From: Oscillospiraceae bacterium MB08-C2-2
GTDB lineage: Bacteria > Bacillota > Clostridia > Oscillospirales > Ruminococcaceae
Assembly: GCA_035621215.1 (NCBI GenBank)
Contig: CP141729.1
Span: forward strand, 1,138,944 to 1,202,943
DNA: 64,000 nucleotides
Direction of reading: 5' to 3'
Positions within the stretch are counted from its first letter, which is position 1. Each line of letters begins with the position of its first letter. The notes beneath the pieces are model-generated. The model did no database searches and was not told the DNA's origin. It saw nothing but the letters and a program-made list of their open reading frames with translations. Both the position numbers and the translations under genes were made by a program. Shown here one piece after another: positions 5,562 through 36,879 of the stretch.

Positions 5562-7592
5562 TTATTGTGCCGCTTTACGCTTCCCTGCCGTGAACAGCAT
5601 GGTTATACCCAGCAGCGATACCAGACCGCTCCACAGCCAAAAAGAACGCAGGCTGTCTCCACCGGTATTGGGGAGCTCATCCAATTCATTTGAACTAAGA
5701 GGGATTTTATCTTCAACAATTTCAATCATTTCGACAGTCGTAGCTTTACGATCGGATTTATCTCTTCCGCTTGTATCGGTGCCTCCACCCGGCTTAGTGT
5801 TTCCGCCGGATCCAGACTCGCCCTCGGGTTCCCAGGCAGCCCAGAGGGTTGTATTCTCTGTTACAGTATCTGTTTCAAAATTCCAGAACACTGGGCTGTC
5901 GTTTCCATCCAAATAAGCATACCATCCCTTGAACAAAAAGCCATCACGGGTGGGGTCTGCAGGCTGGTCGGTTATGGTGCTTCCAGCAGCAACAGTCACT
6001 TTGTAAAAATCATTGTATTCTGTGCCATCAGCTGGATCAAAAACCACAATATAGCTTTTTTCCCATGCGGCCCAGGCGGCCCAGAGAGTTGTATTCTCTG
6101 TAACAGTATCCGTTGCAAAATTCCAGAGCACCGGGCTGTCGTTTCCATCCAAATAAGCATACCATCCCTTGAACAGAAAACCATCACGGGTGGGGTCTGC
6201 AGGCCGATCGGTTATGGTGTTTCCAGCAGCAACAGTCACTTTGTAAAAATCATTGTATTCTGTGCCATCAGCGGGATCAAAAACCACAATATAGCTTTTT
6301 TCCCATGCGGCCCAGAGAGTTGTGTTCTCTGTAACAGTATCCGTTGCAAAATTCCAGAGCACCGGGCTGTCGTTTCCATCCAAATAGGCATACCATCCCT
6401 TGAACAAAAAGCCGTCACGGGTGGGGTCTGCGGGCCGATCGGTTATGGTGCTTCCGGCAGCAACGGTCACTTTGTAAAAATCATTGTATTCTGTGCCATC
6501 AGCTGGATCAAAAACCACAATATAGCTTTTTTCCCATGCGGCCCAGGCGGCCCAGAGAGTTGTATTCTCTGTAACAGTATCCGTTGCAAAATTCCAGAGC
6601 ACCGGGCTGTCGTTTCCATCCAAATAAGCATACCATCCCTTGAACAGAAAACCATCACGGGTGGGGTCTGCAGGCCGATCGGTTATGGTGTTTCCAGCAG
6701 CAACGGTCACTTTGTAAAAATCATTGTATTCTGTGCCATCAGCGGGATCAAAAGCCACAATATAGCTTTTTTCCCATGCGGCCCAGGCGGCCCAGAGAGT
6801 TGTGTTCTCTGTAACAGCATCCGTTGCAAAATTCCAGAACACTGGGCCGTCGTTTCCATCCAAATAAGCATACCATCCCTTGAACAAAAAGCCGTCACGG
6901 GTGGGGTCTGCGGGCCGATCGGTTATGGTGCTTCCAGCAGCAACAGTCACTTTGTAAAAATCATTGTATTCTGTGCCATCAGCTGGATCAAAAACCACAA
7001 TATAACTTTTTTCCCATGCGGCCCAGGCGGCCCAGAGGGTTGTATTCTCTGTTATAGTATCCGTTTCAAAATTCCAGAACACTGGGCTGCCGTTTCCATC
7101 CAAATAAGCATACCATCCCTTGAACAAAAAGCCGTCACGGGTGGGGTCTGCGGGCCGATCGGTTATGGTGCTTCCGGCAGCAACGGTCACTTTGTAAAAA
7201 TCATTGTATCCTGTGCCATCAGCAGGATCAAAAGCCACAATACAGCCTTTTTCCCATGCGGCCCAGGCGGCCCAAAGGGTCATATTTTCTGTTACAGTAT
7301 CCGTTTCAAAATTCCAGAACACCGGGCTGTGGTTCTCATCTAAGTAGGCGTACCATCCCTGAAAGAAATAGCCATTACGGGTAGGATCTTCGGGCTGGTC
7401 TGTCACGGTGCTCCCGGCAGCAACGGTCACTTTGTAAAAATCATTGTATCCTGTGCCATCAGCGGGATCAAAAGCCACAATACAGTCTTCGTCTTCCGCA
7501 AAGGCCTGAATGGGAAATATCCCCATAACCATAACAAGCACCAGCAGAAGACTGACCAGCTTGCCTATTGCACCATATTTTTTTTGTTTCAT
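5562..7592 (-). CDS. LPNTG-anchored surface protein with seven Listeria-Bacteroides (InlB B-type) repeats
   Basis: The 676-residue protein has a signal peptide (hydrophobic core about residues 10-30, cleavage near AFA-ED). Seven consecutive repeats of about 80 residues follow, each opening IVxFDPADGTxYNDFYK and closing WNFxTDxxTENxTLWAAW, the Listeria-Bacteroides repeat (beta-grasp, flg_new) family. A Gly/Ser-rich spacer, the sortase signal LPNTGG, a hydrophobic segment and a positively charged tail (GKRKAAQ) end the protein. ATG 7592 is chosen because GGAGG lies 6 bases upstream and the signal peptide starts there; longer starts to 7637 have no such site. It is presumably anchored by the sortase encoded 0.7 kb away. 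Near identity of the repeats indicates recent duplication or gene conversion. Confidence 0.93.
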   Translation of the reverse strand: MKQKKYGAIGKLVSLLLVLVMVMGIFPIQAFAEDEDCIVAFDPADGTGYNDFYKVTVAAGSTVTDQPEDPTRNGYFFQGWYAYLDENHSPVFWNFETDTVTENMTLWAAWAAWEKGCIVAFDPADGTGYNDFYKVTVAAGSTITDRPADPTRDGFLFKGWYAYLDGNGSPVFWNFETDTITENTTLWAAWAAWEKSYIVVFDPADGTEYNDFYKVTVAAGSTITDRPADPTRDGFLFKGWYAYLDGNDGPVFWNFATDAVTENTTLWAAWAAWEKSYIVAFDPADGTEYNDFYKVTVAAGNTITDRPADPTRDGFLFKGWYAYLDGNDSPVLWNFATDTVTENTTLWAAWAAWEKSYIVVFDPADGTEYNDFYKVTVAAGSTITDRPADPTRDGFLFKGWYAYLDGNDSPVLWNFATDTVTENTTLWAAWEKSYIVVFDPADGTEYNDFYKVTVAAGNTITDRPADPTRDGFLFKGWYAYLDGNDSPVLWNFATDTVTENTTLWAAWAAWEKSYIVVFDPADGTEYNDFYKVTVAAGSTITDQPADPTRDGFLFKGWYAYLDGNDSPVFWNFETDTVTENTTLWAAWEPEGESGSGGNTKPGGGTDTSGRDKSDRKATTVEMIEIVEDKIPLSSNELDELPNTGGDSLRSFWLWSGLVSLLGITMLFTAGKRKAAQ
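5823..7490 (-). repeat. Tandem array of seven 240-bp coding repeats
   Basis: The coding region repeats with a period of 240 bp; one inter-unit distance is 231 bp because one unit lacks a 9-bp WAA codon block. The central units differ by only a few bases, the first (5'-most in the gene) and last are more divergent, as expected when the array expands by unequal exchange in its middle. Confidence 0.9.
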
Positions 7593-7640: not shown

Positions 7641-7692
7641 ATACCAGCTTCATACTCATATCCATACAACGCCTGTTTACGGGCAAAGTAAT
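7641..7692 (-). repeat. Degenerate copy D of the modular hairpin element
   Basis: The plus-strand text CTTCATACTCAT followed about 18 bases later by GTTTACGGGCAAAG aligns with the 35702-35748 part of copy B (CTTCATACTCAT ... TATTTACGTGCGAAG), and the preceding GATACC matches its TATACC. Read on the minus strand it lies about 50 bp upstream of the LPNTG protein start. Confidence 0.5.
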
Positions 7693-10858: not shown

Positions 10859-10956
10859 TATATGAGTATGAAGTCGGTATAGACCGCCTATGGCGGTCAG
10901 CGGCAAATGGCCGCTGTTTCAAACCACGTTGTGGTTTTAATGCTATACAATTATAA
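10859..10956 (+). repeat. Copy A of the modular hairpin element
   Basis: This 98-bp copy matches the reverse complement of the left part of copy B over its whole length (GAGTATGAAGTCGGTATAG, ACCGCCTATGGCGGT, GCGGCAAATGGCCGC, GTTGTGGTTTTA, CTATACAATTATA), with about ten differences. It lacks the GAAGCTG hairpin module. It contains hairpins ACCGCC/GGCGGT and AGCGGC/GCCGCT and ends 14 bases before the HD gene start. Confidence 0.85.
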
Positions 10957-11550: not shown

Positions 11551-11607
11551 TGCAAAGAGAGAAACCCTACACATTCAGTTTGAATCTGTAGGGTTTCTCT
11601 CTTTGCA
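11551..11607. terminator. Perfect 21-bp stem-loop between convergent genes
   Basis: Arms 11551-11571 and 11587-11607 are perfect complements (TGCAAAGAGAGAAACCCTACA) around a 15-base loop. It separates the convergent HD and SelO genes, so a bidirectional terminator is likely, although the downstream T run is interrupted. Confidence 0.6.
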
Positions 11608-23147: not shown

Positions 23148-23214
23148 ATGCAAAAACCCGTCCAAGAGAATGCACTGATTGGTTCAGTGCATTCTCTTGG
23201 ACGGGTTTTTGCAT
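23148..23214. terminator. Perfect 31-bp bidirectional terminator hairpin
   Basis: Arms 23148-23178 and 23184-23214 are perfect complements with a 5-base loop; each outer part carries five T on its 3' side. It follows the RidA gene on the minus strand and is also positioned to stop readthrough from the ABC operon. Confidence 0.85.
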
Positions 23215-28020: not shown

Positions 28021-28136
28021 TTTATAGTTGTATAGGTTTATAACCACTTCATACTCATCTGCGCGCAAGGCGTGTCTGCGAGCTTCGCCCGCAGCTTCAA
28101 AATTGCATTGCAGTTTTGAAGCTATATGAGTATATG
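28021..28136 (-). repeat. Copy C of the modular hairpin element (internal module missing)
   Basis: The 116-bp copy matches both ends of copy B (TTATAGTTGTATAGGTTTA ... AACCAC and CTTCATACTCATCT ... GCAGCTTCAAAATTGCATTG ... GAGTAT) but lacks the roughly 55-bp GCGGC/ACCGCC hairpin block between AACCAC and TTCATACTCAT. It begins 29 bp after the iclR stop and fills the gap before fucI. Confidence 0.85.
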
Positions 28137-35480: not shown

Positions 35481-35615
35481 ATCCTTGCCCCACTTCCTCT
35501 CACGCATCTTTTCAGGCCTGTATTTCCAACCGATTCTATCGTTGTAAAGGCACTTCACCAACAAAGGCCTGCTGCCATCTCAACAATCCCATTGTCTATA
35601 GAATGGCAGCAAGCA

Positions 35616-35785
35616 TTATAGTTGTATAGGTTTAAAACCACAACGTGATTTTAAACAGCGGCAATCTGCCGCTAACCGCCATAGGCGGTCTATACCGACT
35701 TCATACTCATCTACACGCAATGCGTATTTACGTGCGAAGCACGCAGCTTCAAAACTGCTATGCAATTTTGAAGCTGTATGAGTAT
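35616..35785 (-). repeat. Copy B, full-length modular hairpin element
   Basis: This 170-bp copy contains all modules. In plus-strand order they are TTATAGTTGTATAGG, an AACCACAACGTGATTTTA segment, hairpin GCGGC/GCCGC, hairpin ACCGCC/GGCGGT, boundary CTTCATACTCAT, short hairpins ACGCA/TGCGT and GTGC/GCAC, hairpin CAGCTTCAAAA/TTTTGAAGCTG, and boundary GAGTATG. It lies between the binding protein stop (33 bp away) and the ATPase gene and is sense-oriented like the others. Confidence 0.88.
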
Positions 35786-35817
35786 GTCAAAGTTCTTATG
35801 CCCTATGTCCGCATCAG

Positions 35818-36879
35818 TTAGAAGCCGAAGCTTGCCCAGTTTTCGGCGGTAATCAGGTTAATATCGCTGCCGATTACCACGTTGCCGTCCACCTTAACAG
35901 CGTCATAGCCTTGGCCAAGGTTAGTGCCTTCGCTAATGGTTTCACCCTGCAAAGTCAGCTTGGCCGCCATGCAGGCAGCATAGGCCGCATTTTTGGGGTC
36001 CCATGTGATGCACGATTTAACCGATTCATTTGCGAAATATTGCTCCATATAAGAGGGAATGCCCAAACCGCCTACGGCAACCTTACCAATCAGGTTGGCT
36101 TCCTCCAAAGCATTGCAAATGCCGGGCAGATCGCCGGAAGAGGAGGCTTGAATGGCCACAAGATCCGGGTAAGCCTTGATCAGCTCCATGGTTTTTGCCT
36201 GTGCACCCTCGAAGCTTTCGGTGGATTCTACCCGCTCAGCTACAGTCAGGTTTGGGAATTTGGCTGCTCTGGCTTCGGCCGCATCTCCCCATGCATTGTG
36301 AGAGCCATTGGTGAAGTAACCGACCATATAAACATAAGTACCCGCTTTGTCACCCACCTGCTCTGCGATGGTTTCCATACCAAAGGTGCCAAAATCCTCG
36401 CTGGTTACAGCCTCGATGTCATAGTCGGTTTCTTTGCTGGCAGATGCCTCGTGGGTGATAACTTTGATGCCCTGCTCCCGTGCACGTTTCAACGTGGGCT
36501 CCATGGCCTCAACATCAAAGGGAACAACAATAATGGCATTAACTCCCTGCGCCATATAGGTTTCAACCAACGCAATCTGCTGGGCCGAATCCTTGGAATC
36601 AGGTGCATCGTAAATAACTTCATAGCCAAATTCATCGTTGAACTTGGTTACACCCTCACCCTGACGCATGCCCCAGTTGCTGGTGGCAGATTTTGCGATA
36701 AAGGCAATGGTATATACTTCGTCTGCTGTGGAGGTCTTCTCTGCTTCGCTGCCCGCAGGGGCAGAAGCTGCTCCACTGGCAGATGGGGTGTTATTGGCTT
36801 GTGCTGCCGAGCCTCCGCCACACGCAACAAGGGTAAACAGCATAACAAGAGTGAGCAGTGATGCAATAAGCTTTTTCAT
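35818..36879 (-). CDS. Rhamnose/AI-2-type sugar ABC substrate-binding lipoprotein
   Basis: The 353-residue lipoprotein has a lipobox LFTLVAC (Cys20), a Ser/Ala-rich linker, and a Peripla_BP_4 domain with IVVPFDVEAMEPTLKRAREQ, TSEDFGTFGMETIAEQVGD and ITWDPKNAAYAACMAAKL, closest in style to RhaS and LsrB. The ligand is a pentose, deoxyhexose or AI-2-like compound; fucI nearby favours a deoxyhexose. ATG 36879 follows GGAAGGGGA. It is the first gene of the import operon, with a predicted promoter and operator 210-270 bp upstream. Confidence 0.92.
   Translation of the reverse strand: MKKLIASLLTLVMLFTLVACGGGSAAQANNTPSASGAASAPAGSEAEKTSTADEVYTIAFIAKSATSNWGMRQGEGVTKFNDEFGYEVIYDAPDSKDSAQQIALVETYMAQGVNAIIVVPFDVEAMEPTLKRAREQGIKVITHEASASKETDYDIEAVTSEDFGTFGMETIAEQVGDKAGTYVYMVGYFTNGSHNAWGDAAEARAAKFPNLTVAERVESTESFEGAQAKTMELIKAYPDLVAIQASSSGDLPGICNALEEANLIGKVAVGGLGIPSYMEQYFANESVKSCITWDPKNAAYAACMAAKLTLQGETISEGTNLGQGYDAVKVDGNVVIGSDINLITAENWASFGF

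Follow-up and report, generated by a model that had tools for sequence, protein, structure and literature searches.

The locus studied here raised the question of what a hairpin-rich repeat is, and whether it acts on its neighbours, when it occurs four times within 64,000 nucleotides of the genome of Oscillospiraceae bacterium MB08-C2-2 (the window, i.e. the whole stretch of DNA that was analysed). A sequence-only reading had described four co-oriented copies before four unrelated genes and proposed either a repeated structured RNA leader or a small MITE-like palindrome with a preferred orientation. All four copies (A to D) were located where that reading had placed them, and repeat finding independently paired copy A with B, C and D, which confirmed the repeat as real. 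Three of the neighbouring genes encode a sugar ABC ATPase, an L-fucose isomerase and an HD-domain protein, as proposed; the fourth, previously called an LPNTG protein gene, matches the Listeria-Bacteroides repeat domain. Seven tandem repeats were additionally observed in and around this fourth gene (window 5831-7561), with a spacing of about 240 nt and 72-95% identity to the reference copy. The features of the four copies are as follows.

35616-35785, + strand: copy A, full-length double-cloverleaf element (blastn, RNA and DNA folds)
35617-35629, + strand: copy A, left terminal repeat and 5' strand of the module 1 outer stem, TATAGTTGTATAG (sequence reading)
35630-35656, + strand: copy A, hairpin h1, A/T-rich, loop AAC (sequence and fold)
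35657-35673, + strand: copy A, hairpin h2, loop ATC (sequence and fold)
35675-35689, + strand: copy A, hairpin h3, loop ATA (sequence and fold)
35690-35701, + strand: copy A, 3' strand of the module 1 outer stem and inter-module linker, CTATACCGACTT (sequence)
35702-35710, + strand: copy A, 5' strand of the module 2 outer stem, CATACTCAT (sequence)
35713-35727, + strand: copy A, hairpin h4, loop AAT (sequence and fold)
35731-35743, + strand: copy A, hairpin h5, loop GAA (sequence and fold)
35745-35775, + strand: copy A, hairpin h6, A/T-rich, loop TAT (sequence and fold)
35777-35785, + strand: copy A, right terminal repeat, 3' strand of the module 2 outer stem (sequence)
28021-28136, + strand: copy B, hairpins h1-h3 of module 1 lost, module 2 retained
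10859-10956, - strand: copy C, module 1 and linker, module 2 lost
7641-7692, + strand: copy D, degenerate fragment consisting of the linker, h4 and part of h5

Copy A represents the complete unit of two closed modules, each formed by an outer stem around three hairpins. The motif GAGTATG/CATACTC, which had been assigned to every block boundary, proved to be the outer stem of module 2 only (CATACTC/GAGTATG). The modularity noticed before is real, but the differences between copies are best read as hairpin loss from a six-hairpin unit, and the absent blocks were redefined correspondingly: the three module 1 hairpins in B, the entire module 2 in C, and most of the unit in the fragment D. The h5 loop of copy B, TTC at 28084-28086, is the inverse of the h5 loop GAA of copy A.

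A blastn search with copy A of its own 3.29-Mb genome (G000) gave 52 matches at E<=0.01. These correspond to 39 copies after 12 opposite-strand self-matches were subtracted, two split copies (two rows each) were merged and one copy was added from the end motif. The copies lie on both strands, the full unit measures about 170 bp, and none of the 39 overlaps a gene of our own gene calling by more than 15 bp. All ten segments of the unit were matched at >=60% in 9 of the 39 copies, the others being without at least one hairpin or an end, and one copy (L055) consists of a single hairpin between both ends. The end motif alone was matched 50 times in this genome at up to 2 mismatches (30 times for a reversed control), and none of nine such places fetched beyond the 39 copies revealed a cloverleaf on visual inspection, with L049 as a possible remnant. 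The same genome also carries a second hairpin-rich repeat family of about 180-230 nt (L022/L025 at C1:874761-875124, L030 and L067, also L057, L060 and L062), one copy of which is situated inside hairpin h3 of a double cloverleaf, with an apparent duplication of h3.

By blastn, the element was detected in three of 61 genomes (own and related), namely G000, G002 and G007. A covariance-model search of related genomes, recommended along with the sequence-only reading, revealed further hosts of the same architecture. A model of eight G000 copies matched at least six of 297 genomes of the family (G000, G001, G009, G075, G179 and G210; nine candidates scored per genome), with G009 (E 0.003) and G210 (E 0.008) barely detected. 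With their own representatives as queries, the congener G009 showed at least 34 places (39 matches), G210, from another genus, at least 40 (50 matches), and G075, from a genus other than those of G210 and G000, at least 40 (71 matches); these counts include fragments and rest on 40 scored candidates per genome, and opposite-strand duplicates were removed for G009 and G210. One copy was found in G001. A genome pattern scan with the exact end pattern, which may omit records of the window's own genome, returned 22 stretches, 20 in G002 and 2 in proteobacterial MAGs; the latter two were rejected as chance because no cloverleaf followed the end pattern. In G002, several module 1 copies (L037, L040-L044) run straight into a different repeat beginning approximately with TATAGTGAATTCGC, and L041 then ends with the last hairpin and end of module 2, i.e. 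is a modular chimera.

Searching 394 genomes of the order with a broader model (seven candidates per genome) gave matches in at least six including G000, and two of the other five are credible. G389, from another family, has one copy (L152, E 5.9e-15), next to genes without Pfam matches. G370, also from another family, has two 98%-identical copies at unrelated loci (L153 and L157), which are the best candidates for recent movement; at L157 the TAA stop codon of the upstream gene takes its final two bases from the element. The G370 units are partial fits, with two module 1 hairpins and no clear second outer stem when folded with their flanks. Weaker order-level matches were dropped as a different tandem-like repeat (L154), for poor folds (L155, L158) or as partial (L156). 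Searches for carriage on phages or plasmids gave no match of viral contigs to two end patterns, of plasmids to L152 or of phages to copy A.

Representatives of these genomes (L081 in the case of G179) share one plan, consisting of an outer stem, three hairpins, a linker, three hairpins, an outer stem and TATA-type ends, with the second outer stem formed in the fold of L084 and unformed in that of L069. A structure model built exclusively from G000 copies scored five G075 elements at 73-81 bits, whereas a sequence-only model from the same alignment scored four of them at 19-25 bits and missed the fifth at E<=1. Likewise, L071 (G009, 36.5 bits) and L081 (G179, 50.5 bits) were found by the structure model and missed by the sequence-only model. 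At E<=0.0001, L079 (G179) and L072 (G210) escaped the G000 structure model, L072 reaching E 0.0003 in another search. The claims across genomes rest on structure models because MAFFT misaligned h2 and h6 between genomes. The architecture has been retained in several lineages while the sequences have diverged, and sequence searches miss double-cloverleaf relatives because only the shape is common to them.

The common orientation described before holds for the four window copies and not genome-wide. Flanking genes relative to the element were of type ++ at 16, -- at 12, convergent at 6 and divergent at 5 of the 39 copies in G000, and therefore the reading as a co-oriented RNA leader is removed; random orientation or convergent placement had been named beforehand as speaking against a leader. 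In G075, convergent regions were the commonest class (convergent 14, ++ 11, -- 5, divergent 5) among 35 places with both neighbours, after removal of 2 duplicated rows and as raw counts. The annotated stops lay 15-170 bp away in this tabulation, so that an element beginning at a stop codon is retained for L157 of G370 alone.

The fold of copy A was far more stable than that of shuffled sequences, both as RNA (z -8.5 on the + strand and -9.1 on the - strand) and as single-stranded DNA (z -9.4). Two four-way junctions were formed by 23 of 33 full-length copies compared with 9 of 990 shuffles; just 7 of 16 copies formed both in G075, whose elements have a short second outer stem. Covariation was found in G075, with 14 pairs changed on both sides and 92.9% of cells paired (25 of the 35 copies, shorter or more divergent ones excluded; shuffled mean 5.4, reached by 0 of 500 shuffles), and in G210, with 12 such pairs and 98.8% of cells paired (the 6 copies fetched as loci; shuffled mean 5.9, 0 of 500). 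It was weaker in G000, with 6 double-changed pairs and 95.1% of cells paired in 8 copies, a value reached by 26 of 500 shuffles. These shuffles ignore relatedness, and sliding the partners gave lower values in every case.

The loops were mostly 3 nt long (132 of 192 loops). Both orientations of a loop, one the reverse complement of the other, occurred at 8 of 11 hairpin positions (null mean 2.0; equalled in none of 20,000 trials). Weaker positives among the eight are G000 h1 and h4, whose loops are a single base away from their inverse, and G000 h6, which rests on 4 copies. The test used fixed loop columns and dropped copies without two intact closing pairs (e.g. 17 of 31 at G000 h1); it replaced a first version (9 of 18 positions, null mean 3.2, P 0.0002) that had wrong hairpin centres in the A/T-rich arms. 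Where inverting the commonest loop of a position changes all 3 of its bases, 16 copies carry a loop that departs from it in every base; 9 of the 16 have exactly the inverse, and independent inversion events number fewer than 9 because copies share ancestry. Loop inversion and multi-base compensatory change are described as marks of template switching during replication in the excerpts of PMC8794818, where complete loop inversions are also reported to be very rare in rRNA, whose loops are constrained. Short palindromes that are present in dozens of copies per genome and were amplified separately in several species represent a natural data set on the possible formation, correction and inversion of hairpins by template switching.

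The terminal inverted repeats are imperfect, with 10 of 13 positions matching between TATAGTTGTATAG and TATACTCATATAG in the window's genome and 10 of 12 between TATAGTCAAACC and TATACTAAAACC in G075. In most copies the ends are fixed as TATAG...GTAT(A), i.e. with a terminal 5'-TA-3'. No variable duplication was seen by eye beyond these ends, a TA duplication being indistinguishable from the ends themselves without an empty site. Locus L143 of G075 contains two full elements and one fragment by the structure model, while the orthologous stretches in the sister species G179 (L186) and G300 (L187) gave no match with this model at E<=1; two intergenic regions orthologous to L143 were also compared by eye, and G300 carries the element elsewhere (L188). 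Since the orthologous flanks align at 65-76% and are too diverged for an exact empty site, we infer insertion, target duplication and the exact boundaries. Comparing the positions of partial copies in G000 and G075 by eye revealed no autonomous form in which genes separate the modules. Two facing partial copies on contig C61 of G075 were considered as such a form and rejected, as their order is wrong and the end of the contig truncates one of them.

Taken together, the element is probably mobile DNA of the non-autonomous, MITE-like kind, about 170 bp long, with hairpins that are maintained at the DNA level. Its body consists of two inverted-symmetric cloverleaf modules, a short linker and TATA-ended imperfect terminal inverted repeats. 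It is dispersed, conserved in shape, subject to loop inversion and without orientation preference; insertion into a TA target, and maintenance of the hairpins through template switching, would fit these observations. Copies might spread in trans via a recombinase that recognizes the ends, possibly on a folded strand, at TA-rich sites. Template switching at the replication fork would preserve the pairing of the palindromes and invert them from time to time, and copies would afterwards decay through hairpin loss, with effects on adjacent genes being incidental or local. The MITE-like palindrome of the sequence-only reading is hereby retained with respect to its dispersed and intergenic occurrence, its TATA-ended repeats and its presence or absence between sister species, though not with its preferred orientation.

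The element is probably a member of an ordinary class, the non-autonomous and mobile intergenic repeats, with an unusual body plan. The family had been left unnamed before, and this still applies: the 64-kb window gave no Rfam match above the gathering cut-off, four loci searched gave two sub-threshold matches, both located where L069 begins and at the terminator-like hairpin preceding it, and the literature searched, which mostly excluded subscription papers, contained no description of a double-cloverleaf element. According to the excerpts of PMC2229807, bacterial MITEs such as Correia/NEMIS, ERIC and RUP are similarly shorter than about 200 bp and non-coding, with imperfect terminal inverted repeats, terminal TA, strong secondary structure and many intergenic copies. 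Those listed there other than CIR form a stem-loop by pairing of the 5' and 3' ends, whereas two closed four-way cloverleafs joined by a linker are present here; the architecture here also persists despite divergent sequences, and the search for a partner IS gave none. Caulobacter CIR also has two structured arms and a linker; in the same excerpts each of its arms is one long inverted repeat carrying a GANTC site, and it is listed without terminal inverted repeats, whereas the arms here are three-hairpin cloverleafs and the ends are TATA-ended repeats. Pneumococcal BOX elements, as presented in the excerpts of PMC3049150, are likewise intergenic hairpin repeats of Firmicutes, built of modules whose set varies, and are over-represented between convergent genes, the commonest class in G075. 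BOX is built from tandem boxB between boxA and boxC, whereas the copies here lack hairpins of one fixed six-hairpin unit, no tandem array of the boxA-(boxB)n-boxC type was seen in the copies as read, and the species-specific versions, unlike BOX, share shape and not sequence. The element thus adds a distinct architecture to the bacterial MITE-like repeats.

A more specific identity, a TA-targeting, RUP-like MITE moved by an IS630/mariner-type transposase that has since been lost, is possible and deserves consideration, although we regard it as unlikely. The TATA termini without a longer duplication suggest such a mobiliser, as do the size and intergenic placement, which fit the class in the excerpts of PMC2229807. 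However, no DDE_3 domain, which marks IS630-type transposases, was detected in any of G000, G002 and G075; with G002 70% and G075 94% complete, loss or missing contigs might account for this. To our knowledge, transposases of this type have no need of the conserved six-hairpin body.

More tentatively, and with a rather low likelihood in our judgement, the double cloverleafs might constitute a shape-inherited class of mobile elements across genera and families of one order, for which folded DNA and not sequence is the recognition signal. The mobilising enzyme would in that case act on single-stranded or cruciform DNA, with the two four-way cloverleafs as complex ends, and template switching would keep the palindromes paired and flip the loops, so that lineages could re-invent the sequence and keep the shape. 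Such a logic is comparable to that of integron attC sites or parvovirus hairpin ends. Identification of the mobiliser would reveal whether DNA shape is read by a recombinase.

The selected unit could instead be a structured RNA, spread in a SINE-like manner or serving as a genome-wide RNA-processing or mRNA-stabilising element, which we consider doubtful. Conservation of architecture rather than sequence and the covariation in G075 and G210 are consistent with it. On the + strand, G-T exceeded A-C combinations in G000 (32 vs 11 cells; 22 vs 10 distinct pair types) and in G075 (70 vs 37 cells; 28 vs 21 types), which is the direction expected of RNA selection but is biased, since the structure was drawn from RNA folds of the + strand. 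One-sided pair changes also exceeded two-sided ones in G000 (32 vs 9 cells) and G075 (49 vs 31 cells). This relation was reversed in G210 alone (21 two-sided vs 6 one-sided cells), and against a structured RNA also stand the missing orientation rule and loops that are mostly 3 nt long and flip, complete loop inversions being reported as very rare in rRNA with its constrained loops (excerpts of PMC8794818). Two observations, loop length and loop inversion, hence favour DNA, and the excess of two-sided changes does so in the single lineage G210. We judged the sum of the evidence favourable to maintenance of the hairpins at the DNA level, short of proof, so that covariation here need not mean RNA function. 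Covariation by itself would have suggested a functional RNA family, which might serve as a warning against taking it as proof of RNA function. Copy A is situated directly 3' of a periplasmic (solute)-binding-protein gene and 5' of the sugar ABC ATPase gene (window 35564-35818), a possible mRNA-stabilising site, and intercistronic hairpins are able to stabilise upstream mRNA. A single copy may therefore be co-opted, and an individual copy such as A could still act on its neighbouring gene within a family of mobile DNA elements.

It is very unlikely that the element is a selected host chromosomal site, i.e. a nucleoid- or gyrase-binding site or a terminator, and not a selfish mobile element. The strictly intergenic placement and the 14 of 35 convergent places in G075 would suit such a role, as would the terminator-like hairpins seen by eye directly before copies L069, L088, L089 and L153. 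Against it stand the lineage-specific amplification with absence at orthologous places, the incompleteness of most copies and the lack, by eye, of a T-run after the consensus end. An excess between convergent genes was also reported for mobile repeats: in the excerpts of PMC3049150, such over-representation of BOX, RUP and SPRITE is read as evidence of parasitic mobile repeats.

Movement by a Y1 transposase, in the manner of REP/REPIN or IS200-like elements, appears highly improbable. Hairpin ends, the absence of a visible variable target duplication and 17 Y1_Tnp matches in G000 point in this direction, but G002 and G075, both rich in copies, gave no Y1_Tnp match, and the IS200-like element of G000 has ends unrelated to those of the double cloverleaf. 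REP/REPIN sequences with their RAYT (Y1) are also palindromic, intergenic and non-autonomous in the excerpts of PMC3733652 and PMC3116915; REPs measure 20-40 bp there compared with about 170 bp for the full element, and the Y1 gene was not found in two of three host genomes here. Thirteen of the G000 matches (L098-L109) have equal scores and represent an IS200-like element of about 730 bp that was apparently amplified recently.

A cis-acting leader of the following gene, similar to a riboswitch or attenuator, is scarcely tenable and refuted as a general role, since the strong fold of copy A and the position of all four window copies 5' of a coding start are outweighed by the mixed orientation (++ 16, -- 12) with convergent places in both genomes (6 of 39 and 14 of 35), by unrelated downstream genes, by hairpin sets that vary between copies, by variable and often inverted loops and by the absence of an Rfam match.

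Two further palindromes of the window were noted besides the four copies. Both are near-perfect inverted repeats with a spacer of 3-5 nt, at 23148-23214 (31 bp, 100%) and 11551-11607 (27 bp, 96%), and possibly represent terminators.
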